Shown in pieces: positions 5,382-33,693 of a DNA stretch of 64,000 nucleotides. Made by a program: the position numbers and the translations under genes. The stretch's first letter is position 1. The number at the start of each line of letters is the position of its first letter. The DNA lies in IMG/VR virus record IMGVR_UViG_3300027852_000001, positions 104,091 to 168,090 of that record. One strand, written 5' to 3'. The stretch comes from a virus. Under the pieces are notes generated by a model. The model worked only from the letters and a program-made list of their open reading frames with translations. It did no database searches and was not told the DNA's origin.

Positions 5382-8300
5382 ATGCCACTACAGTTCGACA
5401 ACAATTTTCGTCTAATTTGGATACATGACGAATCTGGTGTTAGTGGTATTCCTGCGGGATTCTTGAGGGACAATCAATACGACGGTAGATCCCTGCAAGG
5501 TTCGACTAGTGGCCAGATCGATGGTGGTGACGGTGGTCACTCTCACTCACTTGAAGACCACACTCATACGTCAGAAACACACGTTCATTATATATCTGCC
5601 ACATCTGTTACTGCTTCAAATACTTTAAGTGTAACAGCTGCGCTTTGGTATACAAACTATCAATGTCCACATGCAACGCACTCTCATACAAGTAGTGCAT
5701 CTGCTCCTGCATCCATAGATTATGCATCAAGTGGTGCTGGAAACACAAATAGTGCTTCTGGAATATACCCAGCCCATGTTACAGCGATTATAATAAAACC
5801 AACTGGTACAGTATCTTCAATACCAAGTGGTGTTGTAGCGTTTACCGATTCTGATAGTGCTCCTGACAATTTTGAAATTGCTAGTGGTATAAATAATTAT
5901 CCAGACTTAAGTGGCTTATTCGTTATTGGAGCATCGTCTGGGTCTGATGCCGGACAAGTAAATGTTGCGTCAACAGGACACACACATACGGCGTCTAGCG
6001 ATCATAAACACGAAGAAGGTGCTCACTCTCACTCTCCGGTGGACTGTGGTTACTCATATACTACATTCGATACATATATTGGGTATTCTTTGCCTGGATA
6101 TGCTTTATCGAAACACCATACAACAGCGTTGGCCACTACTACATCTGGAGATGGATACACGACAGAAAGCGGGATAACAACAGATAGTGGCGGTGCTGAA
6201 CCAGCATATACAAAATTACTGGGAGTACAAACTACTGGGTCAACAACAATACCTTCTGGATTGATATTTGGTTATGTTGGTTTACCAGAAAACTTAGATA
6301 CAGATCAGTGGGAAATTTGTGATGGAAGTGGAGGAACAACAGATCTATCTAATACTCAGATAAAAATAACAACAAATATATCAGATATAGGTAATACTGA
6401 TGATTCAAAAAATCTACATACTCATAGTTCGTCCCATGGACACGTTAGACCAAGTGGAAGCCATACCCACACAGTAACAGTATTGCATAAAAGAAATCAG
6501 ATTGGTAGAGATCCGTCTTTCCCAACAGATACATCCTTTAGGGGTGGAACAGCCCACACTCACACATGGACGTGTACTTCTATGTCTGGAGGGGCTGTCA
6601 TCGATGCTGATGTAACAACCTCATCAGGTGACCACAGAGGACCGTGGAGGAGTATGATATGGGTTAAATCGAAAGAATTTACTTCAGCTTCTGAATATAC
6701 TTCTTCTGGAAATCTATTTATTGGCGGTTGTGAACAAGTCAATGTTTCTGGTGATTTATTTATAGATGGTTATGGAGCAGATAATTCTTCTTGTGATTTG
6801 TTTGTTTGGGGAATTAATGATCAAACTGCATCTGGCGATTTATATATTATTGGCTCTAGTGAATCATCTACTTCTGGGGATTTGTTTATAGAAGGGTATA
6901 TTCAGGAATTTGATGACATATATCTTTACACCAAAGGGCCTGATGGTACAAACTCATCTAGTAATCTATTCATTTATGGAGGAAATGGACTTCCTCTATA
7001 TATAGCCGGGTCTTCTCCTGAACCTTCTTCTGGAAATATACCATTATTTACACAAGGAAGCGAGGATGAAAATAATTCTCACGAATTATTTATTTACGGA
7101 TATGAATCGTTAGCAGCTTCTGGTGATTTATTCATTGAAGGATTTGATAGCAAAACCACATCAGTAGATTTGTTTATAGATAGTCATGTAAGCACATCAT
7201 CGTCTATAGATTTATTTATCAACGGAAGAACATTAGATTATAGTGATATTCCATTATATATCAATGGGCCTACACAAAATAGTTCTTCTGTAAGTTTGTT
7301 TGTTTATGGTGGTAATAATCTTCCATTATACGTTGGTGGTATTGCAGATATATCATCTTCTGGTGATCTGTTCGTTGGTGGCTTTGATGCTGAAACATTG
7401 TCTACAGATCTTTTTATTGAAGGATCACAAGAAGAAACAAAATTTTGCAATTTATTCATTGGTGGTCTAGATAACCTGTCGTCGTCAGGTAATCTTTTCG
7501 TAGGTGGTGTTGGTAGTGGTTTGGAACCATTGTTACCGCTATTTATTTATGGATATACATCAGAATCTGGAACAATAGATTTATTCATAGGTGGTCATTC
7601 TGGATCAACTTCTGAGATAGACTTGTTTATTGGTGGCAAAAATACAATTGATACGCCATCACTTCCTCTTTTTATAGCTGGATACGCATACAATAATAAT
7701 TCTATCGATTTGTTTATAAATAGCTATAGCGGTAGTTATGATTCTACCGAATTGTTTATTGCAGGACAAGAAATATGGTCGTCTTCTGGAGATTTATATA
7801 CTGGTGGACACACAGGTGCTTCTTCTTCGGGTAATTTATTCATTGGAGGATACCACCTAACAAGCGGTGACACGAACCTATACGTTCATGGATATTCTGC
7901 AACTACATCTTCCGTAGATCTATTCATACACGGTTGTAGTTCATTCAGTGGTAGTAATGATTTATACATAGGTGGATACAACATCTATTCGTCGTCTGGC
8001 GATCTGTTTATTGAAGGACTTGGTACTAGTAGCGAAAATGATAATTTATCTCTCTTCATTGAGGGATTGGGATTAGTTTCTGTTTCTGGTTATGTTAATT
8101 TGTTTGTAAATGGATACGAGCCGTTGACTCCATCCGTGTGTCCACTGCCAGATCCAACAGCAAGTTTTCAGATTCCACTTAGTGTTATAGATGTATATCA
8201 AAGTAGAATTGATGCCTTAATAAATCAAGTTGGTAAGAATGTTGTTTTGAGGTTTGATCCAAATATTACAAAATGTCCTAATTGTGGATGGGATTCTATT

Positions 8301-8663
8301 AGGTCTAGATCAAACGGTAAATATGTTATTGGGGGACCGAGACAGTTTGATTATGGTACTGTTTGTCCATATTGTAATGGTGATGGAATTTTGAAGGAAA
8401 ACGTAGAATTGTGTATAAAATGTTTGATAGATTGGAACCCAAAAGAAACGACTAATGAAGAAATTTCTGTTTATGATGGGTCAGAAATTATTAAAATTAA
8501 AACTTTAATCACCAATGCCAAAGACTTAAAGAGAGCTAAGGTTGCTTTGGTTGATCGTCAAGTTGCTAATATTGTTAAATATGAGGCCAAGCTTATTAGT
8601 GGTCCTTATCCGTTAGGAATAAGAGAAGATAGATATTGTGTTAGTTTTTGGAGGACCATATAA
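5382..8663 (+). CDS. Giant fibre protein: collar-like His-rich modules, 34 LFIxG repeats and a C-terminal zinc domain
   Basis: 1093 residues in three parts. (1) About 1-440: three tail-collar-like modules with His-x-His clusters (GHSHSLEDHTHTSETHVH at 52-69; HTHTASSDHKHEEGAHSHS; HTHSSSHGHV) and a QWEICDGSGGTTDLS element like the 'WxxCDGxxGTPDL' of collar domains. In fibres such His pairs coordinate metal ions along a trimer axis. (2) About 444-911: 34 repeats of a unit ending LFIxG, spaced about 14-16 residues, joined by Ser/Thr/Gly linkers. (3) About 920-1093: a domain with Cys pairs CPNC (965-968) and CPYC (995-998) that is clearly homologous to the whole of the next gene. Likely a receptor-binding or surface fibre anchored through its ends. 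The ATG start is one base after the preceding stop region. Confidence 0.75.
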   Translation: MPLQFDNNFRLIWIHDESGVSGIPAGFLRDNQYDGRSLQGSTSGQIDGGDGGHSHSLEDHTHTSETHVHYISATSVTASNTLSVTAALWYTNYQCPHATHSHTSSASAPASIDYASSGAGNTNSASGIYPAHVTAIIIKPTGTVSSIPSGVVAFTDSDSAPDNFEIASGINNYPDLSGLFVIGASSGSDAGQVNVASTGHTHTASSDHKHEEGAHSHSPVDCGYSYTTFDTYIGYSLPGYALSKHHTTALATTTSGDGYTTESGITTDSGGAEPAYTKLLGVQTTGSTTIPSGLIFGYVGLPENLDTDQWEICDGSGGTTDLSNTQIKITTNISDIGNTDDSKNLHTHSSSHGHVRPSGSHTHTVTVLHKRNQIGRDPSFPTDTSFRGGTAHTHTWTCTSMSGGAVIDADVTTSSGDHRGPWRSMIWVKSKEFTSASEYTSSGNLFIGGCEQVNVSGDLFIDGYGADNSSCDLFVWGINDQTASGDLYIIGSSESSTSGDLFIEGYIQEFDDIYLYTKGPDGTNSSSNLFIYGGNGLPLYIAGSSPEPSSGNIPLFTQGSEDENNSHELFIYGYESLAASGDLFIEGFDSKTTSVDLFIDSHVSTSSSIDLFINGRTLDYSDIPLYINGPTQNSSSVSLFVYGGNNLPLYVGGIADISSSGDLFVGGFDAETLSTDLFIEGSQEETKFCNLFIGGLDNLSSSGNLFVGGVGSGLEPLLPLFIYGYTSESGTIDLFIGGHSGSTSEIDLFIGGKNTIDTPSLPLFIAGYAYNNNSIDLFINSYSGSYDSTELFIAGQEIWSSSGDLYTGGHTGASSSGNLFIGGYHLTSGDTNLYVHGYSATTSSVDLFIHGCSSFSGSNDLYIGGYNIYSSSGDLFIEGLGTSSENDNLSLFIEGLGLVSVSGYVNLFVNGYEPLTPSVCPLPDPTASFQIPLSVIDVYQSRIDALINQVGKNVVLRFDPNITKCPNCGWDSIRSRSNGKYVIGGPRQFDYGTVCPYCNGDGILKENVELCIKCLIDWNPKETTNEEISVYDGSEIIKIKTLITNAKDLKRAKVALVDRQVANIVKYEAKLISGPYPLGIREDRYCVSFWRTI
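6711..8114 (+). repeat. LFIxG protein-repeat array (34 units)
   Basis: Thirty-four units of the pattern [DNPS]-L-[FY]-[IVT]-x-G counted in the fibre gene from NLFIGG (6711) to NLFVNG (8097-8114), usually preceded by SSSG or TSGD. The repeat is conserved at protein level while codons vary, so this is an old or selected array and not a recent DNA duplication. The same unit occurs in the genes at 28114 and 2077. Confidence 0.9.
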
Positions 8664-9250
8664 TGGAAAGTGGAGTAGTCAATATTTTTATCAATGGTGA
8701 ACCAGAACCAGTATCTTCTACATGCCCGACCCTTGATCCAGAAGCTTCTATACAAATTACTGATGATTTAATTGGTATATATCAGTCAAGAATAGATGCT
8801 TTAATAAATCAATTAGGAAAACATGTACTACTTGAGTTTGCTCCAATAAAAACTCAATGCACTAATTGTGGGTATGATTCTATGAGAAATAGATCTGATG
8901 GAATATATACACAAGGGGGACCGAGACCATTTGCTCGTGGAAGAAAATGTCCCCATTGTAAGGGATCTGGGATATTATTGGAAGAGGTCAATGAATGTAT
9001 TCATGCTTTATTAAAATGGAATCCAAAAAATCCAGAAGAATACGGTATATCTGCTTCGAAACACAAAGGAATTGTTAGAATAAAAACATATTTACATCAT
9101 ATGCCTAGTTTAATGAGAGCAGAAACGGCTATTACGAATTATGACATAAGAGCTATGCTGACTTTAAAAGTAAAGAAGATAAAAGGTCCAATTCCTGTCG
9201 GATTAAGAGAGGACAGGTATTGTATTAGTTTTTGGGAATTAATTTCCTAA
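8663..9250 (+). CDS. Zinc-ribbon virion protein, paralogue of the fibre C-terminal domain (neck candidate)
   Basis: 195 residues from ATG 8663; this start overlaps the fibre stop by one base (TAATG) and is served by GGAGGA at 8650-8655. It aligns along its whole length with the last 170 residues of the upstream fibre: IYQSRIDALINQLGKHV, Cys pairs CTNC and CPHC, a GGPRPF turn, and a conserved end GLREDRYCISFWE. The paired CxxC motifs suggest a structural zinc. Short phage proteins of this kind are found near neck genes, so a head-tail joining or fibre-anchoring role is plausible. The tandem arrangement of a fused and a free copy is unusual. Confidence 0.7.
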   Translation: MESGVVNIFINGEPEPVSSTCPTLDPEASIQITDDLIGIYQSRIDALINQLGKHVLLEFAPIKTQCTNCGYDSMRNRSDGIYTQGGPRPFARGRKCPHCKGSGILLEEVNECIHALLKWNPKNPEEYGISASKHKGIVRIKTYLHHMPSLMRAETAITNYDIRAMLTLKVKKIKGPIPVGLREDRYCISFWELIS

Positions 9251-9262
9251 AAGGGGAATATT

Positions 9263-10468
9263 GTGGATATGGATTTTATAACTGGTGATGAATACAAATT
9301 TTATAATGGTTACATATACGGAGGTGTGTGTGTATCTGTAACGAATGATACTTATGCAATATTATACCAAACTAATGTTATAACTAGACCTACATTTGTT
9401 ATGGCTGCTGTCAGGAATGGATTAGAGCTATCATTTTCTTCTGCAAAAAATTTATCTTATTTTTCCAACTATGAAGCCAATAATGATCAATATTCTGCAC
9501 TTGGGATGTGTTTGTGTGGACCGAATAATGTTATGACTAAATGGGTTGATGAGTCCACAGGAAAAGCGTTATATAGGATAGCATCATTATCTGGGACTTC
9601 CACTCCCGATGCTGGTGAGATATATTCTGAATTATTATACGAAGGCGGCATGTATGGAGATCCTTGTTCGATAGTTATGGATAGCGATTCTGTTAGTGGA
9701 ATAATTTTATGTTGTCACGAAGAACACGCTTCTGTTTTAACTATAAACGGAACAGAGATTATTGATCAGTCTGATTATACTCAAATTTTTGAAAACAATA
9801 ATATAGTAAATACCACAGAACATATAGGAAGTGGTTTGGTGTTATCATTCTCAAAAGGTGATACACCACTTGGAGAAACATATTCCATTTCCGTAGACGG
9901 AACAACAGTTACTAAAGAGGTGTTAAATTCTTTCGTTGCAAATCCTGCAGATCCAGATTACCTTAGTTCTTGTTTGTTACATGATGATCAAACGTGCGGA
10001 TTAGTATGGAGAGATGCAAACAACAGTAATAAAGGTAATATCTGTCATGTTTCTGTTTCTGAAACTACTCCAATTTATGGTACACCCCAAATATGGTCTA
10101 GTGGACAAATTAGATGCCCAAGTATTTTCAGTTATGGGGATGACAATATTGGTGTTGTTTATATAGATACAGAAGATAGTGATAAACTGAAGATTATTAG
10201 AGGAACATTATCAGGGACTGTATTTACTTTTCCAGAAGATCCAATTGTTGTCCATGATGCTGCAACAACTCATGTTCATAGACCAGCATTACAAGATGAT
10301 CGTTATTTAATGATTTCTTATAGAGATGCAGATGATTCGAACAAAGGAAAAGCTGTTATCGTGGATGTTGTTGGATCTCCATCCAATAACATGTCTGCTA
10401 CTGTTGGAGGACATCAAATATTTGCTAACATCTGGGTTCCAGAGACATGGAGGGTATATCGTGGCTAA
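9263..10468 (+). CDS. Beta-propeller-like virion protein
   Basis: 401 residues from GTG 9263, preceded by AAGGGG at 9251-9256. It is all-beta with blade-like repeats such as GLVWRDANNSNKGNICHV and ISYRDADDSNKGKAVIV and VVYIDTEDSDKLKII, spaced about 50-60 residues. This is typical of a six- or seven-bladed propeller. No catalytic residues stand out. The end overlaps the next gene's GTG start by eight bases. Surface exposure and ligand binding are likely by family analogy; the exact role is unknown. Confidence 0.65.
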   Translation: MDMDFITGDEYKFYNGYIYGGVCVSVTNDTYAILYQTNVITRPTFVMAAVRNGLELSFSSAKNLSYFSNYEANNDQYSALGMCLCGPNNVMTKWVDESTGKALYRIASLSGTSTPDAGEIYSELLYEGGMYGDPCSIVMDSDSVSGIILCCHEEHASVLTINGTEIIDQSDYTQIFENNNIVNTTEHIGSGLVLSFSKGDTPLGETYSISVDGTTVTKEVLNSFVANPADPDYLSSCLLHDDQTCGLVWRDANNSNKGNICHVSVSETTPIYGTPQIWSSGQIRCPSIFSYGDDNIGVVYIDTEDSDKLKIIRGTLSGTVFTFPEDPIVVHDAATTHVHRPALQDDRYLMISYRDADDSNKGKAVIVDVVGSPSNNMSATVGGHQIFANIWVPETWRVYRG

Positions 10469-11162
10469 AATAAATTGGAAGCTTGATATGCCTAATTCTG
10501 CACACATTGATTTAATAGAAAAAATCAGATACCATGGATCAAGATTGTGGGCTAATGTTGTTCTGTCTAAGGGTGGTAAGATTCGAGCAAAAATTAGTCA
10601 AATGTTAGTTAACGCTTTTAATGAAACTGATGTTGCCATGTCTCTGAGAGGAAAGGGTTCTGATGATTTACCTGCTCACTTTGGTCTAAGCGATAGTTTA
10701 GCAAATTCTTTAGCTGACGGAATGGCTAATTTGATTGCATCTTCCGTTAAAGTTATTACAACATCTAGTGGAAATTCTGTTTCTGTAACTATCAAAGCAA
10801 TAGATAAAGATTGGGGTGAATATCTGAATCTTCCTGGGGCTAGTTACATTTCTTCTCAGTCGGATATTGTTATCCCAGTTGCAAAATGGATGCTTGTAGA
10901 TCCAACAATAGATATAGGACAGGCTGCATATGATATAGTATTCAAGGGTGATGACGACAAGTTTGATGTTCGTATACAACATACATCAAGGAGTGGTAGA
11001 GCAATCATGGTAGCCTTACAAGCTCTTGGGGGTGGCGGTGGAGGATATGTGTTGCCAGATATTATTTCTGGTAATGCTGGTGAAAATTTCATAGAATATA
11101 CTTTAGGACAGCAAAAGGTCGCAATAAGTGCTGCTAATATACTTATGGGAGAGGTAGGATAA
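10461..11162 (+). CDS. Virion protein of unknown function (neck or tail completion candidate)
   Basis: 233 residues from GTG 10461, chosen because GGAGGG (10449-10454) lies six bases upstream; a longer frame from 10326 would overlap the upstream gene by 143 bases and lacks a good site. The first 60 residues are helical (HIDLIEKIRYHGSRLWANVVLSKGGKIRAKI). A beta region and a Gly-rich loop (ALGGGGGGYV) follow. The mixture and the position before the tail tube fit a neck or tail-completion protein. No family motif recognised. Confidence 0.55.
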   Translation: MAKINWKLDMPNSAHIDLIEKIRYHGSRLWANVVLSKGGKIRAKISQMLVNAFNETDVAMSLRGKGSDDLPAHFGLSDSLANSLADGMANLIASSVKVITTSSGNSVSVTIKAIDKDWGEYLNLPGASYISSQSDIVIPVAKWMLVDPTIDIGQAAYDIVFKGDDDKFDVRIQHTSRSGRAIMVALQALGGGGGGYVLPDIISGNAGENFIEYTLGQQKVAISAANILMGEVG

Positions 11163-11163
11163 T

Positions 11164-12099: not shown

Positions 12100-12103
12100 T
12101 TAT

Positions 12104-14028: not shown

Positions 14029-14034
14029 AGATTT

Positions 14035-15290: not shown

Positions 15291-15607
15291 TGGCTAAATA
15301 TTATCTACTTAGTGGTGAATTCAGGACTATTAAAGACGCCAAAGATCACCAAGAAGGAATGAGAAAGGCTGTGTTGGAGTTGTTTAATGGTAACTTGCCA
15401 CATACATTATTTATGGGTGTTAGCGAAAGAGGATTTGAGTCGTCAATCAATAATTTATATCCAATGATTCCTGTGTTAAGGGATTTGGGAATTGATTTAC
15501 CTTCTGACGAATGTTTGATTTCTGCTGTTTGCGAGTCTCTTGGTGTTAAAAGAATCAGCGATGATGAAAAAGAATGGATTTTATATGGGAGAAGTATCCG
15601 TGAATAA
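15290..15607 (+). CDS. Small protein of unknown function
   Basis: 105 residues, soluble, with a short N-terminal strand (AKYYLLSGEFRTIKDAKDHQ) and helical remainder. Translationally coupled to the gene before it (TAATG) and overlapping the RNA ligase start by eight bases after it. No family recognised; the tight coupling on both sides suggests a shared functional group with the ligase. Confidence 0.65.
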   Translation: MAKYYLLSGEFRTIKDAKDHQEGMRKAVLELFNGNLPHTLFMGVSERGFESSINNLYPMIPVLRDLGIDLPSDECLISAVCESLGVKRISDDEKEWILYGRSIRE

Positions 15608-16565
15608 TATTTTATCTCATACATGTGATGTTGTTGTCGTGCGATTAAGAGAACATCCGAATGCAGATTCTCTTAGTCTTGTTAATGTTGACGATTTTCA
15701 GTGTGTTGTAAGAACTTCAGATTGGAACGATGGCGATCTTGGTATATACATCCCACCAGATAGTGTTGTACCAGATACTGACGAATTTAAATTTTTAGGT
15801 GGTAAAAGAAGAATAAAAGCTAGAAAACTGAGGGGTCAATGGTCTATGGGTTTGCTGATCAAAGCACCATTAGATGCAACTATTGGCGACGATTATATGG
15901 AGAAATTCGGCATAGTTCATTATGAACCAAAGGTTCATGGTAGTTTTAGTTCTGGTGGGAATGATGTAACACCACCGAAAGTATTTGCTCCAGTTTATGA
16001 TATTTTAAATTTTCGCAAATATTCTAATAGATTTGAAGATGGTGAGGAAGTTATTTGTACCGAAAAAACCCACGGTTGTAACTCAAGGTTTGTTTGTTTG
16101 AATGATCAAATTTTTTGTGGTTCTAGAAAATTTTGGAAACAAGAAGATGTTAATAATCTATGGTGGAAAGCTTTAGAATGGAATCCAGCATTAGATGCGT
16201 GGTTAAGACACCATGAAGGATTAGTAGTCTACGGAGAAGTCTACGGTCAAGTACAAAATCTTAAGTATGGTGCTACTAATGGTGAATTGTATTTTGCTGC
16301 ATTTGATATTTTGGATGGTGATCGATGGCTAGATTATGACGAAGCTAGGATGGTTGGCTCTGGTCTTCCTTGGGTTCCTCTAGTTTATAGAGGTCCGTTT
16401 GATAAAGAAAAAATTCTTGAGTTTGCAGAAGGAGATAGTAGCTATCCAAGAGCAAATCATCACAGAGAAGGGGTTGTCATAAAGCCGGTTAACGAACGAA
16501 TAGATCGTAATATTGGACGGGTTCAACTAAAGGTTGTTGGAAATAGATATTTAAGTAAAAGTTGA
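15600..16565 (+). CDS. RNA ligase of the DraRnl (Rnl5)-like type
   Basis: 321 residues from GTG 15600, preceded by GGAG eight bases upstream; an in-frame ATG at 15585 is the alternative. An N-terminal OB-like domain (about 1-120) includes DVVVVRLREHPNADSLSLVNVD, a tRNA-binding-like beta barrel as in DraRnl. The nucleotidyl-transferase motif I is CTEKTHGCNSRF with Lys-156 the expected site of AMP attachment. VVYGEVYG is motif III, LYFAAFDIL is motif IIIa, REGVVIKPV is motif IV, and RVQLKVV is motif V. The enzyme seals RNA nicks with ATP, for instance to repair host anticodon-nuclease damage. All core motifs are intact, so it should be active. Confidence 0.82.
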   Translation: MNNILSHTCDVVVVRLREHPNADSLSLVNVDDFQCVVRTSDWNDGDLGIYIPPDSVVPDTDEFKFLGGKRRIKARKLRGQWSMGLLIKAPLDATIGDDYMEKFGIVHYEPKVHGSFSSGGNDVTPPKVFAPVYDILNFRKYSNRFEDGEEVICTEKTHGCNSRFVCLNDQIFCGSRKFWKQEDVNNLWWKALEWNPALDAWLRHHEGLVVYGEVYGQVQNLKYGATNGELYFAAFDILDGDRWLDYDEARMVGSGLPWVPLVYRGPFDKEKILEFAEGDSSYPRANHHREGVVIKPVNERIDRNIGRVQLKVVGNRYLSKS

Positions 16566-23048: not shown

Positions 23049-26000
23049 GTGGCATTTGTACTTGATGTTAATCTTAGAATTAAAGAGATCCTTGGCTTAA
23101 AGAAAGTCGAGGCTGCTCTCAATAAGACTCAAGGAACACTCCAAGCTGGTATCGGAGGTAGTGGTGGGAGTACTGGTGGCACCAATTCTATGGTTACATC
23201 AACAAAAGCACTAGCTGCCGCTGCCGCAACAAGTGCTGTTGCCATAAACAAAACAACAAAGGCAACTCAAAAACTAAATGCTGTTCAGGGTAAAACTGCT
23301 GTTGGGTTACAAAAATCTAGCAATAGCATAAAGGATGCTGGAAAACAAGCTGATACTTTTGGACACAAGATTAAATTAGCAGGAACACGTTATGCCGCGT
23401 TCTTAGCTGCTACTGCTGGTCCAATAGCAGTAATTGGGGCATTCGGAAAAGCTACGGCAGCTGTCATTGAATTCGATAGTGCTATGCTAAAAATGAGACA
23501 AATTACTGGAGAGACAGAACAACAGATAAGTGGTATGAGGGATAACATACTTGATTTTGCTGCAAGTACAGGAACGTCTGCTAGTGAACTTGCTAGAGTT
23601 GGAAAGGTATTGGCTCAAGCTGGACAAAGAGGTGATCAACTGACAGAATCACTAAGTGCTTTATCTAAAGTTCCACTAACTCCATCTTTTGAAACTATGG
23701 ATGCTGCAATAGAAGGTACAATTGCCGCCATTAATCAGTTCAACTCTGAAGGACTGAAAACCACAGAAGTCTTAGATGTAATGACAGCTCTTTCGAATAA
23801 ATTTGCTGCATCGTCAGAGGATATAGCAAAAGGTACTGCTCGTGGTGGTGCTGCATTCGAAGCTATTGGTGGTACATTCAAAGAATTTGCTGCTGTTTTC
23901 ACCACAGTAAGACAAGCAACCAGAGAAAGTGCCGAAACAGTCGGTACATTCATGAAAACTATCTCTTCTCGTCTGGCAGACCCCAAAATTGTTTCATTCC
24001 TAGAGGGGAAAGGAATTAATATAGGAGAAGCTATTGAAGCTGGTGATCCAGTTGGGGCCATGAAAAGAATAGCCGCTGCATTAGAAGATATTACAAGTGT
24101 TCAGGATAAAATTGAAATAGGAACTAAGCTTGGTGGAAGAAGACAAATCAGCCGGTTGCTAGCTTTGGTCAGCAATATGGATGTATTAAATGATGCATTA
24201 AAAACAGCAGGAACCTCTGGTGGTGCATTCGGAGAAGTAGCGGAGAAGGGTTTGTCTGGATTGCAGGCTCAGATAAATATAATGGTTCAAGAATGGAATA
24301 AGCTAATACAAGCATTAGCTGCTCCTGTTTTTGTCCCATTGATTAAATTTGCCACATCTGCCGGAAAAGCTTTGGCAGCTATGGTTGATTTTGCTAAACC
24401 GGTTATACCAGCATTAACATACATTGCTGGTTTCGCTGGATCTTTTAAGCTTTTAACTATTTCCATAACAAACGCAGGAAAAGCATTGTCTTTTATGAGT
24501 AAGGTTGGTAAAACAGTTGGTGGGGGATTAAATAACGCTGCTGTAGGTTTAAGAGGGGTTGCTGATAGTGCTGGGGGTAGGGCTGGTTCTACAGCTAGGG
24601 AACGTGTTAAGAATAGACTCGCTGGTGGGGTTGGTCTTGCTGCTGGACAAGCTGCTGGTGGTTTTGGGGCTCGGGCTGCTACCGGGTTGAAAGCAGCTGC
24701 TGCATCTCCAATAACACAACTTGCTGGTGCTGCTGCTCTCGCTTTGGGTGCTAACAAAGCTTCTGAAGCATTCGAAAAAGCTGGTAATTCTGCTGGAGTA
24801 TTCGCTGCCGAAGCAATTCAAGCTGCTTCTGTTTTGGCTATTGCGGTTTCTGCTTTATCTGGAAAAAGTATTGTAAGTGCTTTCGCTTCTCTTGGTCCGT
24901 TTGGTGGTGCAATAGCTGGTGCCACATTGGCTATTGGGGCATTATCTTATGCTGCTAATCAAGCTGCTGAGATGGATTTTCAAACAGCTATAGACGAAGC
25001 TTCTAAGAAAATTTCTGAATTAGATTTTGGTAGAATAGCTCCCGGTGATTCTTCTGGTCTTCAGGAAGCAGTTGGTGCTCTTGGGACAGAGGGTCTCAAG
25101 GGATTACAAGAGGCTGCAAGTAAATATGAAGATGATTGGTATGATTTCTTAGCTAGTACTCCAAGTAGAATTGGCAATCTATTGTCTGGAGAGGGTCTTG
25201 TTACAATAGACGACGCCCAAGCTAGAGAAATACTAGATACTATGGTTGGAAGTAATCCTGAATTACTAAATGAAATTCTTAGATCTGCTGTAGAGCAATT
25301 TGGTGTTGGAGATATAGAATCTGGTCTTGATCAGATGCTTTCAGAATCATTTGGCGGTAATGTACAGGCTGCTCAGCAACTTAGAAAAGTAATGATAACC
25401 CATCTTGGTGGATTAGAAAAAATTGCTTCTAGTGTTGAGAAAGTTAATTTGGATGCTAAAATTAGCGTATTAGCAAATGCTATAGAAAAAGCTTCTGAAG
25501 ATTTCAGAACACTACATATACCTGCTGAAATTAGTAGTCAACTAGGACTGTTGAGCGATGCAGTTGGCAATGCTGCTAGAGCTATTGAAACTAATGTAAC
25601 ATTATTTGATCAGATGAGTCAAGTTGTAGGACAGGACATAGGAGTTGCTCGTCCAGGAACAGATTGGTCCACATCTGCGGTAGAAGAAATAGCAAGATCT
25701 GGTAATATGGGGGATTTACTTGATCTTAGTAATTTTAGTGAGCTAGAAGGATTTACAACTGACATGGCACAAGTTGGTACTGCTCTTGAAAACTTCATGA
25801 AAACAATGGTTCAAAGTAAGGCAAGTGCTGATTCTTTGAGATCTCAGTTATCTGATCCTGCCATAGATCCATTCGATATTATGGAAGTATATATTGATCA
25901 GTTTACGGAACAATATCCAGAACAGATTCCACCAGAAGCGGTTGCTGCTTTTAAAGCATCTGCTGCTAAACTGGGTCAACAACTAAGAGATCAAATAGTT

Positions 26001-28103
26001 GATGGTGCTGGTGTTATACAAAATGCTGATACATTTAAAGAAGCATTTAATTCTACATTAGGAAAACAAAAACCGTTATATAGTGCTGCTATAGAAGTTT
26101 ATAGAACGTGGTTGGAAGCTCAGAGCAAACAGCTTAATGCTAGTTTAAGTGGAAGTGAATTGCTCGTTAAGTCTGATGTTAATACAGCAGAATTGGGATC
26201 TACCGTGATAGAAAGTCTTCAAAGATCTATGAGTAATGTTGGTATGGATCTTGATCTTCCTGGTTTTGACATGTTTCAAGATGCCGATGGGGCAATGGTT
26301 GAATTAATAAAAAATGGTAGTGCTGTTGATGATGTTCTGTCGAAATATGGAGAAAGTCTTAAAAAACATGGAGAATTACTTAGAAAAGAAAAAGAAGCCA
26401 GAGATTCTGGAGAAGGTGCTAGTAAAGAATTGATAGTTTCTACCAGAGATGCTGCAAGGGAAGTTCTTGAGTTACAAGCTGCTCTAACATTATTGGCTGA
26501 AATAGCTAGTAGAGCACCAGAAGCTTTTACTGAGCAAGAAAAGAAACAAACTGAGCTTGGATATGGAGGAACTACAGATCCAAGAGAAAAAGAAGAATTT
26601 GATAAATTAGCCAAAGAAACATCAGAGCAAATAACTAGAGGTAGACAGTTGATTGAATCAGAAGTTGCTGTAGATATTGCTCAAGTTCTTGAGGAGCCAG
26701 CAGATATATTTGCCCAGGCTTTGAGAGAAAGTGCTGATGCAGTTAAGTCTTTTACTACAGCGTTAACACAGCAAGACTTAGATCGTGGTGCCAAACAACT
26801 GGTTACAAAGACTACACCAGAGGGACGTCAATACACAGAGAGGCAAAGCGCACCACCAAAGGATACGTCTGGTGAGTCGGGTATTAACACAAAACATCTT
26901 CAGTCAGCATTATTTGGTGGAGAAATAGAAAATGTTATGGAAACATTGCTTCAATCCGCCTCTCAAGTAGCTGGTGGAAAAGTGTTTGGTAACTTGGCAT
27001 CTGGAGATACAGAGAGTGCTACTGCTAATCAGAATTTAGAAAAAAGTTTGAATGAATTTTCTGGATTTATATATGATATTCCGAAAATTATTCAGGACAG
27101 CGGTCTTGATCCTGCTGAGGTTGCTAGGGTTGCTGCTGAATCGTTGAAAGAGCAAGCTGGTGCTCCTGGAGCTAAAGAAATAGAACACCTAGGGGCATTG
27201 AATAGAACTATGGGTGATCTTGAATCAAGCTTAAGAACTATGATAGAAAGACCTGATGTCGCTAGACAACCAGAGCAGTTAATGTCTCAACTAACACCAG
27301 CTATGCAGGAATCTTTACAAAATCTGTCTACGTCTACACAGCAACCAGCTGCTGAAGCAATTGATACACCTCGTGTTTTTGAAGGTTTGTCCGTATCTGC
27401 TTCTGATATATCACAGGCCGCTTCTGAGACAAGAATGGCTGCAGACGCCACAAACGTAGCTACTGAAGGAATGAAAATAGCATCCTTGGATATGAAAACT
27501 GGTGGGACTGATATTCTGTCCGCAAGTCAGAGTATTGGAGAATCGGTGAATCAACTACAAGCAATCTCAGATATTCAAAGAGAAGCTGTTTCTGGAGAGC
27601 AAGCTACTATGGCTAGCCAATCTGAAGATGGTGGTGGAGTGAGAGAAGCTATGACTAATAACACAGAAGCAATAAGTAGTTTGGGAGAAAGAATGGATGC
27701 TGTTGTTCAGGCTGTTGATATGCAAACACAACAAGAAGCTGAAATAGCTGCATCTTCAAAAGAGTCTACCTTAGAACTTCCGGGTCTTGAAGAAAATACT
27801 AGTGCAATTTCCACAAATAATGAAGTAGCTGGAAAAACACAAGAAAGTATGTCTGGTTTAAATAATGGTATGGACAAAATTGCATCAGCTATGGAAGATG
27901 GTGTTGGTGTTGATGTATCTACTATGAGTGAGGTAAAAGTTAATGTTGAAGGTGTTTCTGCTGCTGCTCGTGAATTTACTGCTGAATTCGAAGCTGTCGC
28001 AGAAAGAGTTGCTAAGGCTGAGATTAATATGATATTGCAACAACTAGCCCGTTCTGCTGGTAGTCCAGAAGCTGCCAGTACGTTTGAAAGTGCTATAACC
28101 TAG
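23049..28103 (+). CDS. Tail tape measure protein
   Basis: 1684 residues from GTG 23049, preceded by GGGGAG. Residues about 130-400 match the TP901-type tape measure core: FDSAMLKMRQITGETEQQISG, SASELARVGKVLAQAGQ, EGTIAAINQFNSEG, RLADPKIVSFLEG. A hydrophobic Gly/Ala-rich region follows (about 480-640, with probable membrane segments) and the rest is long, helical and coiled-coil. The protein sets tail length, so at the known ratio of roughly 0.15 nm per residue the tail may be near 250 nm. No lysozyme or peptidase domain is obvious. It is followed by baseplate-type genes as usual. Confidence 0.92.
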   Translation: MAFVLDVNLRIKEILGLKKVEAALNKTQGTLQAGIGGSGGSTGGTNSMVTSTKALAAAAATSAVAINKTTKATQKLNAVQGKTAVGLQKSSNSIKDAGKQADTFGHKIKLAGTRYAAFLAATAGPIAVIGAFGKATAAVIEFDSAMLKMRQITGETEQQISGMRDNILDFAASTGTSASELARVGKVLAQAGQRGDQLTESLSALSKVPLTPSFETMDAAIEGTIAAINQFNSEGLKTTEVLDVMTALSNKFAASSEDIAKGTARGGAAFEAIGGTFKEFAAVFTTVRQATRESAETVGTFMKTISSRLADPKIVSFLEGKGINIGEAIEAGDPVGAMKRIAAALEDITSVQDKIEIGTKLGGRRQISRLLALVSNMDVLNDALKTAGTSGGAFGEVAEKGLSGLQAQINIMVQEWNKLIQALAAPVFVPLIKFATSAGKALAAMVDFAKPVIPALTYIAGFAGSFKLLTISITNAGKALSFMSKVGKTVGGGLNNAAVGLRGVADSAGGRAGSTARERVKNRLAGGVGLAAGQAAGGFGARAATGLKAAAASPITQLAGAAALALGANKASEAFEKAGNSAGVFAAEAIQAASVLAIAVSALSGKSIVSAFASLGPFGGAIAGATLAIGALSYAANQAAEMDFQTAIDEASKKISELDFGRIAPGDSSGLQEAVGALGTEGLKGLQEAASKYEDDWYDFLASTPSRIGNLLSGEGLVTIDDAQAREILDTMVGSNPELLNEILRSAVEQFGVGDIESGLDQMLSESFGGNVQAAQQLRKVMITHLGGLEKIASSVEKVNLDAKISVLANAIEKASEDFRTLHIPAEISSQLGLLSDAVGNAARAIETNVTLFDQMSQVVGQDIGVARPGTDWSTSAVEEIARSGNMGDLLDLSNFSELEGFTTDMAQVGTALENFMKTMVQSKASADSLRSQLSDPAIDPFDIMEVYIDQFTEQYPEQIPPEAVAAFKASAAKLGQQLRDQIVDGAGVIQNADTFKEAFNSTLGKQKPLYSAAIEVYRTWLEAQSKQLNASLSGSELLVKSDVNTAELGSTVIESLQRSMSNVGMDLDLPGFDMFQDADGAMVELIKNGSAVDDVLSKYGESLKKHGELLRKEKEARDSGEGASKELIVSTRDAAREVLELQAALTLLAEIASRAPEAFTEQEKKQTELGYGGTTDPREKEEFDKLAKETSEQITRGRQLIESEVAVDIAQVLEEPADIFAQALRESADAVKSFTTALTQQDLDRGAKQLVTKTTPEGRQYTERQSAPPKDTSGESGINTKHLQSALFGGEIENVMETLLQSASQVAGGKVFGNLASGDTESATANQNLEKSLNEFSGFIYDIPKIIQDSGLDPAEVARVAAESLKEQAGAPGAKEIEHLGALNRTMGDLESSLRTMIERPDVARQPEQLMSQLTPAMQESLQNLSTSTQQPAAEAIDTPRVFEGLSVSASDISQAASETRMAADATNVATEGMKIASLDMKTGGTDILSASQSIGESVNQLQAISDIQREAVSGEQATMASQSEDGGGVREAMTNNTEAISSLGERMDAVVQAVDMQTQQEAEIAASSKESTLELPGLEENTSAISTNNEVAGKTQESMSGLNNGMDKIASAMEDGVGVDVSTMSEVKVNVEGVSAAAREFTAEFEAVAERVAKAEINMILQQLARSAGSPEAASTFESAIT

Positions 28104-28113
28104 GCGGTAAATA

Positions 28114-31100
28114 ATGGCTCAGTGTTTTTACACAGAATGTATCAATACTTGGAAAGCTTCTGATGGAGAAGACGCTACTTGGGTAGAGTATAGTCTTTTG
28201 CCATATGGAGTTCCGTCTGGTGCTGTTGTAGAGATTGCAATAGCCTGTTTAGATCCAAGTTATGAAAAATATGGTGGGGTAAGGGCTACATCTGGAACAC
28301 TAGATCGTACAATTCAAATAGTAAAATCAGCAGATGGTGACTCTTTCGCCACAATGCACGTACAGGCTGATGGCGATAGTAAAATAGATTATTATGCCGA
28401 AGAAACACCAGATATTGAATTTACTATTTTGGGTTATTGGCTTGGATGCGAATATGTTGAAAAGATGGAAACATTTGCTCCAACCGGAGACGCTGCCTGG
28501 GAGGGGTATTCATTAAGTCAATATGGTATTGGTAATGGTGATATTGTTGACACAACAATATCCAATACAGAAACCGCTGCTACCAGAACAATTGGAATAA
28601 GAGCAAGTGGGTCATCGAGATCTTTAACTTTTGACATGAGTGAAGCTGAGGGTGGGGGAAACAACTGCATATCCCAATTCATTATAGCTAGTGGAGATAC
28701 TGCTGCTATTGAATTATACGCTCAAGACCACAATGATTGTTCAGGATATTTGTTTGGATATTTCAGCTCTCCACCTGGAGACTATACAGAAGCAGACATT
28801 GTTTTTCCAGAACCAGCATCTCAGGTTAGTTGGCAGACATTGGACGTGGGTGCTTCTGGCGTCCCAACTGGGTGTGTGGCAGAATTTGTTTTAGGACAAC
28901 AAATAACTGATGACCAAGATATTGGGGTAAGAGAATCAACTTCATCTATAGACAGATTCGTTAATTTAGAAGAATCTGAAGATAATGATGGTTACAGTTG
29001 TGTTTCTATGAAAGCAAATGTTGATAGTGATGGAGAAATCCAATATTATTCAGAAGACATAAGCGATAAACCACTATTCCAATTAATTGGTTATTGGGAC
29101 AATTTTAACGAATCCCCAACTGCGTTCTCACAAAACGATAACTGTGATTGTTTTATTTATGGATTAAATCCGTACATACATTATATAGAAACATATACAA
29201 GTAAGTTTTCTGTAGACTCTGCTAGTACTTGGGAAGAACATGATTTAACAACATACGGGATACCAGTTTCAACGGATGAAAAACCAGTTGTAGCCGAAAT
29301 AGTAGCAACTAATAAATCAACTTCTTCTAGTACTGAAAAATATGTTGGTGTTAGACCTGTCGGATCAAGCTTGGACAGAAAGTTTTTGCTAGACGAAGCA
29401 GAGGGCACTGGGGTTGATTGCCTCAATATGCTAGTTACGGTAGATTCTGCTGGTAAGGTGGAGATTTACGGAGGAAATACTTCATACATAGAATTCCAGG
29501 TAATAGGATACTGGAATGGTGCAATTTATGTGGAAGCGGCTTCGGGGTTTACTACTGTTGGAGACGGATCTTGGAATGATTATGAATTAGGTCCACAATT
29601 TGAAGACAAAGTAGTAGATATTGTAATTTCCAATGATACAACGATACATCAAAGCGGAGGAGTACGTCAGGTAGGTTCTTCTGTTGATAGGTATCACTCC
29701 ATAGGAAAACAAGAAGGTGGACTTGGTTACGCTACCATAGAAACAACAGCAAGTGGAACTAACGGAACAATTCAAGTATACGCCGATTCTGCATCTAATG
29801 TTTCATTCACTTTAATGGGACATTGGTCTCGACCACCAGGAGACTATAATGAAGTATTTACAGACAATACAGCAACAGAAAGTTTAACATGGCAACAGAA
29901 AGACATAAGTATATCGCAAAATTCTATTGTAGAAATGGCATTAGAAAATTGGGATGCAAGTTCTGAACAGAAGATGGGTGTAAGAGAGGTCGGTTCTTCA
30001 GAATCCAGAATTTGGGAAATTAGAGAGACTGATTTAGCAGAGGGGGATGTTGCTGCAAAAATAGTTAGAGCATTTGTGAATGTTTCGAGTGGAACATCTA
30101 TTGAAATTTACCACGAAGCACATATATACCCTCACCACTTTAGAATACTTGGATATTGGGATAATCTAAGTTTAATACCAACATCAACAAATGATAATAT
30201 TCAGATGTTTATGTCAGGTTCTGTTGGTTTTATAAGCACAAGTGGAGATAAAGGTGGATTGTATCCTTCTGGAGTATCTCTCTGGATAAATAGCATAGAA
30301 AATGATGAAATAAGTCTATATACGAATGGTGTTGGATTTGTTGAATCATCTGGGTCTTTGTTTACAGATGGAATTTATCGACTAAATACGCTGGATAATC
30401 CGCAATATCCTAGTGGAGTAACACTATATCAACACGGATACGGTATAATACAAGTAAGTGGACAAGAAACACTATTTATTGATGGTCACCTACCAACTTC
30501 TTCGTCTGGCGATCTTGTCGTCCCAGGACACGGATTTGATAGTGATTCCAGCGACCTATTCTTGAAAGTAATAGATCCACTAAATGCTTCAATGAATCTT
30601 GTTTTGTATAGTCCAGTAGACACTGGTTCTGGATTGATACGAGAAGATAATGCTGTATTTTATCTGAATAACGCTGTAGACGGAGAAAATACGGAAGAAC
30701 AAACACAGGGTATAGATTGGTATGTGCCTGATCTATATTTCTACTCAGTTTCTCATGTAGGAAATTATCACGAAACAGAAACTGCTGGAGACGGAACACT
30801 TCCATTTTATAATCGTCTTGGTGGTGGTTTTGCTCCTGGTCAATTTGGTCTTTCGTTTGAAGGTAATGTAAACAGACAACAAAACGTATTTGGTCTAGTA
30901 GCAAACGATCGATCTCCAAGAACAGAATTGAAAGATTATAGATTTGTTGGAGACGACAGTATAACTGCTGCATTCTGGATGTCTGGGTCTCAGGTTCCAG
31001 CATCGTCTCAAATTGATGTGTACGGGGCAGTACAAACAGCAAGTGGAACACAGGTAAACATAGGATGGTTTTATCGTTTTGGTGAGTTTAGAGCTAGTGA

Positions 31101-33693
31101 TAATGAATTAGGCTCTGCTACTTTAGCACATACTGTTGGGTTAGAAACCAAGGGAGAAAGTGGTTTAGTTGTAAGAACATCCGTAAGAGATGTACCATAC
31201 ACAAAAGAGAGTGGTACGGATTTGTGGTGGGGTGGCACTACACACTACGGAACTCCAACGGGGACTAGTTGGACATGGAATGGTGAGGTAAGCGAAGAAT
31301 ATTATACTTGGGAACAGGAATGGCCGGAAATAAATGTTGCTAGAAGTAACACTACATTTTTCGTAGTTCGTTCTGAGTTTGTTCCTAGTGGTGGTGGTAT
31401 TCCTAATCACATGAAAGTCTACTTGAGTACAGATGGACAACCATGGACTTTTATAGGATCTGGAGTAACTGGACCTCCAGCTAGTTCTTTATACAACTAT
31501 GATGACCCATGGAACAGATATGCAGAAAATGCTGTAGGTTTTAATGTTTTAACAAATAACTGGAGCGGAGGATATCACCATGTAAATACTTCACTAGCAG
31601 AAGTTGCGCTATGGACAGATTCCGACAGATTCACAGATGATGAATTATATGATCTATACCATTTAGTAGAGACATATAAAAGACCGTTGAATGAATATAA
31701 ACCAACAGTAGATGCTCTTCCAACCTATGTAAAAAGAACAGTAGGTCAATTTCAGTATAATCCAATTATGCCGTGGATTACTGGATATAATCCTGGTGAA
31801 ATTTGTTCTGGATTGTTAGTAACACTAGAAGTTGGGATAGGTGGTTACGGAGAGGATGCTTCTGCTTATCTACTAGAAGAAAAACCTCCTTCTGGATTTT
31901 ATGTAAAAGATATAAGTCCACTACAAACAAATTACGGAGGACAGGGAGATAGGCCAGCATCAAGACAAGGACAGTTCAACGATCCACAAAGTGGAATAAT
32001 GGAGCCATATTCTTTCCAGTTGGGTAATTTTAATGAGGCTTCAATAAGGTGGGTTAATCATGATAATAACCCAGAATTTGGTGAAAGAAGATCTCCGCAA
32101 CCAACAAAGACTTTTACCTACAAACTATATCCACAACAGTATAGGGGATTACCACAGGTAGATGAATTTGATTTTTCTGGTAGTGGTGTGTTTTTTGGAG
32201 GAACAACAGGAAGTGGAGTTTTTGTTGTAGCTACAACGGGAGATGTTGATGGTACGACTAGTGGTGTTTTAGGAAGAATATTTACTGATGGATGTGATTT
32301 ATATACTAGTGGACCAGAACAGCCAAGTGGAACAACTAATTTATATGTAAAGACAATAGAACCAATTACAAGTGCTTTTATAGGGAATACTCCAAGAACA
32401 CCCAGTATATCTGACATAGTTTACTCAGCAGAAGGAAAATCTGCCACAGACACTATGGCTGGAGTCGAATATGGTCCAAATCTATACACAAAGGGACCAT
32501 TGAGTTATGATGATAATACTTCATTGTTTATCAGAGCACCAGAAGGTAATGATACAACAATATTTACCGAAGGACACCTAGACCACGATACTAGTGGTTC
32601 TTATCCTTCTGGTATGCTGATGAGAATTGGTGATGGACATGTTCTCCAGAGTCAATCTGGAAATCTTTTCATATTTGGACCACAGCCATCATCTGGTACT
32701 ATCGGATTATTTACTCAGGCCGGTGCGTTTACGAGAAGGATTAATGGTTCTTCCGGACATGGAAATAGTCCAAATCTTTACATTACGTCATATACAGTCA
32801 ATAGTGGTAGTTGTGATTTATTCATAAAAGTACCAGAACCTTCTACGTCTAGCGGCAACCTGTATTGTAAAGGTCCAGAATTTATTTGTTCTAGTGGAGA
32901 TTTTGAATATCCTTACAATCCAGATAGTTTCGAATATCCATCTGGAGATTTGAGCCCTCCACTGTTTATGTATAAACCAATAGGTTTTGGAACAGGTGTT
33001 GTAGATCTATTCATCCAGAGATATTCACGACCAAACTTCACGTTATATCTAAAAACAGATGACAATGATATAACTGGATCTGTTAATTTGTTCACGCATG
33101 GATGTCAAACAGAGGGTGGTGCTGAGCAAAACTTTAAACATACCTCCCTATATATGGATGCTTCCGAAGCTGAATATCCATATACAGAAGGTGGTACTGG
33201 TAACTGGACATTATTCTTAAAGGCGCAAGAAGGTAATTTATCTGAAACTTCAGAATGGACAATGTTCCTGAAGAGTGATACGACCACAACTTCTTCAGCT
33301 AATTTGTACACCTATGGACATGCTTCTGGAGCTAATCCTCATGGAATAGAAATAACAGGATCTATGGGTCTTGTTTGTAGTGTTAATCCAGACGACTACA
33401 GCAGAATAGGATATATACCAACAAATACAGATGATGATCCATGGACGCTGTTTATTAAAGGTTCTCCTGGAGTTTTTGATTCTGTATCTATGTATATGTC
33501 TGGGTCAGCACCTGGGATATCTCTTTCATCTGGGAATTTGTTTGTGGAAGGACTATTTGGTCAACCAACAGGAACATCTAATTTATATATAATGGGCATT
33601 TCAGGGACACTTAATAATGATTGCCCACTATTTATACATGCTGGTCTTCAGGTGTATAATACTGATGGTAACCTATATACCCACGGGTATTAA
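28114..33693 (+). CDS. Giant virion protein: six beta repeats, lectin-like region and two LFIxG arrays
   Basis: 1859 residues from ATG 28114. Part 1 (about 10-690): six tandem units of about 105 residues, each starting near [ST]W-x(3)-[DE/Y]L and ending in 'F-x-[IL]-x-G-[YH]-W'. Part 2 (about 697-836): LFIxG units (QMFMSG, SLYTNG, TLFIDG, DLFLKV). Part 3 (about 840-1240): a LamG- or concanavalin-like beta-sandwich (SITAAFWMSGSQVPASS, NTTFFVVRSEF, HMKVYLSTDG). Part 4 (about 1395-1859): about 26 more LFIxG units up to the end. It follows the tape measure, so it is likely a tail-tip or side-fibre protein with carbohydrate binding. No enzyme motif seen. Among the longest genes here. Confidence 0.75.
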   Translation: MAQCFYTECINTWKASDGEDATWVEYSLLPYGVPSGAVVEIAIACLDPSYEKYGGVRATSGTLDRTIQIVKSADGDSFATMHVQADGDSKIDYYAEETPDIEFTILGYWLGCEYVEKMETFAPTGDAAWEGYSLSQYGIGNGDIVDTTISNTETAATRTIGIRASGSSRSLTFDMSEAEGGGNNCISQFIIASGDTAAIELYAQDHNDCSGYLFGYFSSPPGDYTEADIVFPEPASQVSWQTLDVGASGVPTGCVAEFVLGQQITDDQDIGVRESTSSIDRFVNLEESEDNDGYSCVSMKANVDSDGEIQYYSEDISDKPLFQLIGYWDNFNESPTAFSQNDNCDCFIYGLNPYIHYIETYTSKFSVDSASTWEEHDLTTYGIPVSTDEKPVVAEIVATNKSTSSSTEKYVGVRPVGSSLDRKFLLDEAEGTGVDCLNMLVTVDSAGKVEIYGGNTSYIEFQVIGYWNGAIYVEAASGFTTVGDGSWNDYELGPQFEDKVVDIVISNDTTIHQSGGVRQVGSSVDRYHSIGKQEGGLGYATIETTASGTNGTIQVYADSASNVSFTLMGHWSRPPGDYNEVFTDNTATESLTWQQKDISISQNSIVEMALENWDASSEQKMGVREVGSSESRIWEIRETDLAEGDVAAKIVRAFVNVSSGTSIEIYHEAHIYPHHFRILGYWDNLSLIPTSTNDNIQMFMSGSVGFISTSGDKGGLYPSGVSLWINSIENDEISLYTNGVGFVESSGSLFTDGIYRLNTLDNPQYPSGVTLYQHGYGIIQVSGQETLFIDGHLPTSSSGDLVVPGHGFDSDSSDLFLKVIDPLNASMNLVLYSPVDTGSGLIREDNAVFYLNNAVDGENTEEQTQGIDWYVPDLYFYSVSHVGNYHETETAGDGTLPFYNRLGGGFAPGQFGLSFEGNVNRQQNVFGLVANDRSPRTELKDYRFVGDDSITAAFWMSGSQVPASSQIDVYGAVQTASGTQVNIGWFYRFGEFRASDNELGSATLAHTVGLETKGESGLVVRTSVRDVPYTKESGTDLWWGGTTHYGTPTGTSWTWNGEVSEEYYTWEQEWPEINVARSNTTFFVVRSEFVPSGGGIPNHMKVYLSTDGQPWTFIGSGVTGPPASSLYNYDDPWNRYAENAVGFNVLTNNWSGGYHHVNTSLAEVALWTDSDRFTDDELYDLYHLVETYKRPLNEYKPTVDALPTYVKRTVGQFQYNPIMPWITGYNPGEICSGLLVTLEVGIGGYGEDASAYLLEEKPPSGFYVKDISPLQTNYGGQGDRPASRQGQFNDPQSGIMEPYSFQLGNFNEASIRWVNHDNNPEFGERRSPQPTKTFTYKLYPQQYRGLPQVDEFDFSGSGVFFGGTTGSGVFVVATTGDVDGTTSGVLGRIFTDGCDLYTSGPEQPSGTTNLYVKTIEPITSAFIGNTPRTPSISDIVYSAEGKSATDTMAGVEYGPNLYTKGPLSYDDNTSLFIRAPEGNDTTIFTEGHLDHDTSGSYPSGMLMRIGDGHVLQSQSGNLFIFGPQPSSGTIGLFTQAGAFTRRINGSSGHGNSPNLYITSYTVNSGSCDLFIKVPEPSTSSGNLYCKGPEFICSSGDFEYPYNPDSFEYPSGDLSPPLFMYKPIGFGTGVVDLFIQRYSRPNFTLYLKTDDNDITGSVNLFTHGCQTEGGAEQNFKHTSLYMDASEAEYPYTEGGTGNWTLFLKAQEGNLSETSEWTMFLKSDTTTTSSANLYTYGHASGANPHGIEITGSMGLVCSVNPDDYSRIGYIPTNTDDDPWTLFIKGSPGVFDSVSMYMSGSAPGISLSSGNLFVEGLFGQPTGTSNLYIMGISGTLNNDCPLFIHAGLQVYNTDGNLYTHGY
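28150..30175 (+). repeat. Six tandem beta-domain repeats (about 105 residues each)
   Basis: Units begin near TWVEYSLLPYG, AWEGYSLSQYG, SWQTLDVGASG, TWEEHDLTTYG, SWNDYELGPQ and TWQQKDISI, then share 'GVR..GSS.DR' and '..IEIY...F.ILGYW' elements. They are diverged at DNA level. Confidence 0.8.
30202..30620 (+). repeat. LFIxG protein-repeat array (about nine units)
   Basis: QMFMSG, SLWINS, SLYTNG, SLFTDG, TLYQHG, TLFIDG, DLVVPG, DLFLKV, NLVLYS: same family as the fibre array, more degenerate. Confidence 0.7.
32296..33692 (+). repeat. LFIxG protein-repeat array (about 26 units)
   Basis: From DLYTSG to the final NLYTHGY, units such as NLFIFG, DLFIKV, NLFTHG, TLFIKG, SMYMSG, NLFVEG, NLYIMG, PLFIHA. 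Units are spaced irregularly and tolerate longer Pro- and aromatic-rich linkers. Confidence 0.8.

Follow-up and report, generated by a model that had tools for sequence, protein, structure and literature searches.

A short protein repeat, here called the LFIxG unit, is suggested to build a modular shaft that couples exchangeable adhesion domains to virion anchors in a group of large uncultured phages, and in one neck gene of the window the anchor would be the stopper of the neck; we give this reading a probability of about two in three. The window analyzed, a stretch of 64,000 nucleotides, comprises positions 104,091 to 168,090 of a 168,090-base IMG/VR virus record (IMGVR_UViG_3300027852_000001) and covers the last of the head genes as well as the genes for neck and tail. 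Each unit would form one coil of a beta-structured shaft, and the shaft would act as a spacer that holds receptor-binding or adhesion domains off the virion and is joined to a virion anchor. In the 5382 product (gene products are named by the first position of their genes), the part played by this anchor would fall to a stopper (head-closure) domain of the neck, which has a loop with four cysteines that probably binds zinc. Underneath the portal and adaptor, the protein would be part of the stopper ring or attached to it, and its N-terminal fibre would be directed outward as a covalent neck whisker; the 8648 product would be the same stopper without the fibre. The unit likewise joins a propeller to a second anchor (anchor 2) in the 2077 product, and in the 28114 product it is found both among the display domains and behind them. 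The features concerned, in window coordinates, are as follows.

465-1490, + strand: major capsid protein (phmmer to 6wkk_A "Gp27 major capsid protein", E 3.5e-05)
1703-2044, + strand: short anchor 2, 113 aa, candidate head decoration protein, downstream of the major capsid gene
2077-4410, + strand: propeller adhesin with one LFIxG unit and a C-terminal anchor-2 domain (Ldl_recept_b, 2.9e-08)
4066-4083, + strand: single unit NLFISG between propeller and anchor 2
4126-4407, + strand: anchor-2 domain at the C-terminus of the 2077 product (anchor homology)
4412-4942, + strand: candidate head-tail adaptor, by position only, between the anchor-2 and stopper-like genes
5382-8663, + strand: fibre-bearing stopper-like protein, 1093 aa, with display N-terminus, LFIxG array, and C-terminal stopper-like domain
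5382-6671, + strand: display N-terminus, aa 1-430, collar-like and His-rich (phmmer 1e-161 to a protein of relative L002, 5e-36 to L014)
6699-8126, + strand: LFIxG array, aa 440-915, 34 units mostly of 14 aa
8127-8660, + strand: C-terminal stopper-like domain, aa 916-1093 (A4 family alignment, Foldseek)
8274-8375, + strand: four-cysteine loop CxxC-X26-CxxC (C965, C968, C995, C998), probable zinc site (invariant alignment columns)
8648-9250, + strand: short stopper-like paralogue, 200 aa, without fibre
8681-8698, + strand: single loose unit NIFING at the N-terminus of the 8648 product, with I replacing L
23049-28103, + strand: tape-measure protein (PhageMin_Tail, 8.2e-21)
28114-33693, + strand: tail-region adhesin, 1859 aa, with degenerate LFIxG arrays, directly after the tape-measure gene
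28114-30183, + strand: display modules, aa 1-690 (aa 5-684 match the N-terminal part of the L010 neck fibre, phmmer 4.2e-130)
30184-30603, + strand: first degenerate unit stretch, aa 691-830 (5 loose units; shuffle mean 0.4, maximum 3)
32254-33690, + strand: second degenerate unit stretch, aa 1381-1859 (23 loose units; shuffle mean 1.2, maximum 7)

The gene order is thus capsid, anchor 2, candidate adaptor, stopper-like genes and, further on, tape measure. Family searches with the candidate adaptor gave no match, and a similar gene comes after anchor 2 in relatives. An RNA ligase gene (15540-16565; phrog_968, 2.2e-34) lies within the neck-to-tail stretch. Outside this region, the minus strand at 54478-56826 encodes part of a DNA polymerase III alpha subunit from bacteria (finger domain, 4.3e-47), together with a weak intein-splicing match below the cut-off (3.9e-05).

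The 5382 product contains exactly 34 units of the form L-[FY]-[IVTLM]-x-[GS], with the leucine at residues 445 to 907, a count that agrees with the first-pass annotation of this DNA, which was made from the letters alone. A position-specific profile built from 677 distinct units of other phages, with the window left out, recognized 32 units in this protein, besides 13 in the 28114 product and a single unit in that of 2077. A stricter six-residue form of the motif occurred 31 times in the 5382 product, whereas 2000 shuffles gave 0.08 on average and never more than 2. The spacing of 14-16 residues reported earlier holds for the 5382 product, in which nearly all intervals are 14 residues and the exceptions are 10, 15, or 16, but it fails for the 28114 product, whose units are irregularly placed 12-48 residues apart. 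About 35 units had been attributed to the latter protein, a count that was not confirmed as it stood: the strict motif gives 12, and even a deliberately loose pattern yields only 5 + 23, or about 28. The arrays of the 28114 product are significant but degenerate. The isolated NLFISG that had been noticed in the 2077 adhesin was recovered at residues 664-669 with 19.7 bits by the relatives' profile. Confinement of the unit to these three virion genes was not quite correct, in that the loose NIFING of the 8648 product had been missed; a loose unit at the start is also found in most of the 8648 family. In the rest of the 168-kb record, only two isolated unit matches were seen, both in L048.

The consensus of the unit is [ST]-x-[SN]-[IG]-D-L-F-I-x-G. 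Among the 677 units from relatives, the leucine is conserved in 97%, the glycine in 95%, and the aromatic F/Y in 89%, and the 14-residue phasing is exact. The DNA beneath this pattern has diverged: leucine is encoded by all six of its codons and glycine by all four, any two units share on average 46% of their nucleotides, and no tandem repeat at the DNA level was detected by Tandem Repeats Finder. These data support the view, already put forward in the first-pass annotation, that the repeat is held by selection acting on the protein. The accompanying statement that no named domain has this pattern also stands, since searches with window proteins, long relatives, and profiles against Pfam, PHROGs, NCBIfam, and PDB sequences gave chance-level matches only. 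Neither the array nor the stopper-like domain had a tblastn match in 50,697 INPHARED phages, a search in which the BLAST low-complexity filter may hide arrays, and the literature yielded nothing relevant on a published 14-residue phage repeat.

Relatives were instead available in IMG/VR. The 8648 product used as query retrieved 16 loci, and a DNA pattern for two successive units, which occurs three times in the window with 0.00 expected by chance, retrieved 29 stretches in 19 contigs; contigs with this pattern carry an anchor of the family or, in L026, the family capsid gene. Neck-type proteins consist of a variable N-terminal part, then an array (up to 52 units, in L040), then a constant C-terminal domain of about 180 aa, and relatives that carry the array in a 5382-type gene have the same four-cysteine (Cys4) domain after it. 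A bare form of the Cys4 domain, about 200 aa long, is present in many genomes, and short paralogues have at most one or two units. RCC1 propellers (2.8e-52), LDLR class B propellers (1.4e-22), and LamG (5.3e-15) occur among the display parts, as does a His-rich domain that is collar-like. The display N-terminus of the 5382 type is kept in the neck fibres of several relatives; the Pfam Collar family (PF07484) did not match the 5382 product, and the L014 relative reached 13.6 bits against a cut-off of 24. A role of the unit in coupling exchangeable display domains to two different C-terminal virion anchors is supported by this architecture. The first-pass annotation had recognized a possible fibre shaft and had overlooked this coupling.

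Several related sequences lie outside phage collections or at the edge of the family. A deposited "Candidatus Heimdallarchaeota" record, CP070695.1, contains relatives of the window phage (47,484-93,855 and 151,233-172,989; L055, L056, L074-L082), with a capsid protein 80% identical. The suggestion of an Asgard host was rejected: the record strings together many contigs with 100-N spacers in between, and the phage pieces are contigs of their own, so that their presence is attributed to binning and gives no host evidence. A relative with a capsid protein 85% identical occurs in a Nitrosospira metagenome-assembled genome (MAG; QIFK01000183.1; L066, G002), which is a candidate host link only; this relative has one fibre-bearing and one short stopper-like gene and lies on separate contigs of the bacterial MAG. 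A distant Cys4 stopper-like homologue without an LFIxG unit (L114, 3628-4173; A4 profile, E 6e-23) is a possible outgroup.

Profile searches of PHROGs, Pfam, NCBIfam, and PDB detected no sequence-level homology of the C-terminal domain of the 5382 product to any stopper, and the domain is therefore named stopper-like by predicted fold. Two AlphaFold2 (AF2) models of it, mostly of good confidence, have one main helix and a beta-barrel. Foldseek against BFVD, a library of viral predicted structures, returned several proteins, mostly of 100-170 aa, with a probability of 1.00 and TMt up to 0.62; those with names include a head-tail joining protein, the SPP1 head-tail adaptor, a head-to-tail connector complex protein, and a T4-type neck protein. 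In the PDB, the best matches were the T4 gp20-gp14-gp13 neck complex, the phage 812 stopper, and the phiCD508 neck, followed at lower rank by the E217 neck and the T1 stopper. The E-values are weak (at best 0.0058 in the viral library and 0.046 in the PDB) and the TM-scores over the whole model are low, so that the stopper assignment rests on the consistency of the matches together with gene order; on these predictions, a stopper fold is probable. The weakness of the E-values would also allow the Cys4 domain to be some other tail or neck beta-barrel, for example a neck decoration or collar protein near the stopper, the more so as the stopper barrel resembles tail-tube proteins, some of which are in the match list. 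We regard this as distinctly unlikely, given that stopper, head-tail joining, or neck proteins consistently lead the named matches, whichever of the two libraries and two models is used, and that the domain occupies the stopper gene slot in every record searched, single-copy bare forms included. The four cysteines form invariant columns in both alignments (C539, C542, C569, and C572 in A1; C71, C74, C101, and C104 in A4, the domain alignment of 25 rows).

Twelve records were searched for the domain, the window's own and eleven relatives of 119-181 kb, and at least one copy was found in 12/12. The only copy is fibre-bearing in G012 (166 kb), G014 (180 kb), and G018 (120 kb, possibly partial), with frames of 1032, 1038, and 989 aa, respectively, and bare in G009, G010, G013, and G015. 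If the domain is the stopper, a single fibre-bearing copy in the former three implies that the ring must consist of fibre-bearing subunits. The anchor tree requires about nine changes between fibre-bearing and bare labels (bootstrap 8-11) and is otherwise poorly resolved; at least two changes are forced by well supported branches, such as that grouping the short L007 form with the long L016 form at 100/96.

The second anchor is a family of about 115 aa with an invariant W and C and without a match among known families or the PDB. The short 1703 product is homologous to the C-terminus of the 2077 product (1.8e-11), and in each record searched a single short form is accompanied by between one and three long forms that bear display domains; several of the long forms contain LFIxG units (e.g., L004, L009, and L032). 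The position of the genes suggests that anchor 2 is a capsid decoration protein or the base of a head fibre. Anchor-2 matches in some relatives contain in-frame stops; recoding was considered and rejected, as in the cases read (L014 and L012) these are ordinary stop codons beyond which the match extends by a few residues.

A third setting for the unit is the tail. The display part of the 28114 product matches the N-terminus of the neck fibre of L010, whose record (G014) has a single stopper-like domain, and also the neck-fibre N-termini of two L011 proteins (1e-26 and 2e-38). The match to the L010 neck fibre indicates that binding modules move between tail and neck positions, the LFIxG units serving as the joint.

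A looser pattern of three units retrieved 57 stretches in IMG/VR, about a dozen of which have neither anchor in the fetched stretch (L086-L089, L092, L093, L096, L099, L103, L106, L108-L110, and L112). Arrays of this second group are of a 14-aa SERGLYIxG (LYIxG) type, e.g., SERGLYIEGKDTSN, with more than 70 core matches in L086 and L092. Such arrays were seen in L086, L092, L110, L112, L103, L109, and L093 (3362-4144 and 9723-11450). Seven second-group contigs, and L093 as well, have a gene for a protein family of about 225 aa that starts no more than about 20 bases after the array gene; the family member in L093 matches a PHROG head-tail adaptor (E 1e-07). L093 has a further array-bearing protein directly after the tape-measure region, and thus neck and tail tip both appear to be used despite the different anchors. 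The profiles of the two groups' repeats match at 97% / 40.7 bits, compared with a best of 25.7 bits in 20 column permutations, which is to be read as likeness and not descent because both sets were chosen by one core pattern.

The beta-helix or beta-solenoid proposed earlier for the array finds a counterpart in AF2 monomer models, the only form modeled. With 18 full-length rows, the array reached a pLDDT of about 60 with one 9-residue strand per unit; with 65 rows, of which 33 were in-phase array pieces, the pLDDT rose to about 80 and each 14 residues comprised a 5-residue strand, a 2-residue turn, a 4-residue strand, and a 3-residue turn. In the consensus strand, L at position 0 and I at position 2 are on one side and the conserved F/Y at position 1 is on the other. 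Foldseek of the array against the PDB gave no convincing match; a Lolium ice-binding protein and LpxD were dismissed as array folds because they matched at noise level. For repeats, AF2 has a known bias toward beta-solenoids that are predicted with confidence and yet are false (PMC11795689), and we consider the chances of a 14-residue beta-roll coil to be about even.

Two other structures for the array have to be weighed against such a coil. It could be a trimeric intertwined fibre of the triple beta-spiral or beta-helix kind, in which strands pair across chains and the Phe/Tyr residues form the inter-chain core. Phage fibres are usually trimeric; moreover, L, F/Y, and I are all conserved, so that both faces of the strand are hydrophobic and packing on both sides is suggested, and the change from one 9-residue strand in the few-row model to two short strands makes the coil prediction unstable. 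The aromatic ladder, being exposed, points to contacts with another chain of the kind found in trimeric fibres. The deep in-phase alignment, on the other hand, led AF2 to a compact two-strand coil, and the period of 14 differs from those of T4 gp5, which has an 8-residue VxGxxxxx repeat, and of the adenovirus shaft, a trimer with a repeat of about 15 residues and a Pro/Gly turn. We hold an intertwined trimer to be unlikely, while taking it seriously. A largely flexible, low-complexity spacer with beta propensity and no regular fold, in which the LFIxG strand is simply a sticky motif, would suit linkers rich in Ser, Thr, Asn, Asp, and Gly, the solenoid bias of AF2 (PMC11795689), and the irregular spacing of the 28114 copies; flexible linkers need no period, yet the phasing is exactly 14 residues in the 677 units and in the second group, and this makes such a spacer improbable. 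The arrays might also have no structural role and be kept as recombination substrates for the swapping of adhesin modules. Display modules do move between anchors and fibres are frequently gained and lost, but the DNA of the units is too diverged for homologous recombination (46% identity and no Tandem Repeats Finder match) and the protein pattern is kept all the same, which leaves this explanation very improbable.

The modular shaft on a neck stopper, the reading that we prefer, carries several further suppositions. Assembly of the 5382 product would be hexameric, the fibre would point outward, and host or surface adhesion would be its task; an adhesin function is inferred from the lectin-like and propeller display domains and by analogy with neck passage structures (NPS), for which carbohydrate-binding modules are a precedent (PMC10747895). 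A bolder possibility is that a hitherto undescribed 14-residue beta-roll shaft makes receptor-binding fibres a covalent part of the genome gate, each virion having six of the fibre-bearing stoppers, that the opening of the gate could be affected mechanically by adhesion at the neck, and that the same shaft was re-used on a capsid-side anchor, in the tail, and in an unrelated phage group; we see this combination as a long shot. If the preferred reading is true, the LFIxG unit is a new shaft repeat that none of the protein-family libraries searched contains, and an adhesin is fused to an apparent head-closure ring protein, whereas neck whiskers and tail fibres as such are already known. The pattern L-[FY]-[IVL]-x-G every 14 residues would then serve as a sequence handle for adhesins in a large group of uncultured phages without matches in the collection of deposited phages searched, and such phages may swap binding domains among neck, capsid-side, and tail anchors.

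Among known shafts, the closest solved analogue in period is the head of the trimeric autotransporter YadA, a left-handed parallel beta-roll with a 14-residue period and a conserved Gly, both of which are likewise found here; for the LFIxG array, two short strands per coil are predicted. The YadA-type roll has the motif GxNSVAIGAxSxAx and forms long arrays, with 42 in BpaC (PMC9543794). This motif, including its glycine at position 1, is absent from the LFIxG arrays, which have no Pfam match, and YadA is an autotransporter with a barrel, whereas the proteins described here are phage virion proteins without an autotransporter barrel. The adenovirus triple beta-spiral and the T4 gp5 triple beta-helix similarly place a repeating beta shaft between an anchor and a receptor-binding head, but with another period and consensus and without sequence similarity to the array; in the PDB, no sequence match of the array to an adenovirus-type triple beta-spiral was found.

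Known stoppers such as T4 gp14, phage 812 gp97, and SPP1 gp16 have in common with the C-terminal domain the beta-barrel-with-helix fold predicted for the latter. T4 gp14 has an N-terminal helix and a six-strand barrel and forms a hexameric ring (PMC12270204), and the genes of tailed-phage stoppers occupy a slot after capsid and adaptor, as is the case here with the candidate adaptor. In phage 812 gp97, zinc is bound by a tetra-cysteine loop of a kind that has been reported from Herelleviridae alone, and four invariant cysteines are also present here, but the arrangement is CPC-Xn-CxxC in gp97 and CxxC-X26-CxxC here, so the pattern is not of the Herelleviridae type (PMC12886913). The N- and C-termini of the phage 812 stopper contact decoration proteins that probably hold neck whiskers (PMC12886913); compared with known stoppers, the present family differs in that the domain is preceded, on its N-terminal side, by as many as about 1700 aa that comprise a display domain and a repeat shaft. 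T4 fibritin and the TP901-1 NPS resemble the proposed arrangement in that they, too, project a neck fibre with binding domains; they are, however, separate proteins attached from outside, whereas the fibre described here is continuous with the predicted ring protein and extends from its N-terminus.
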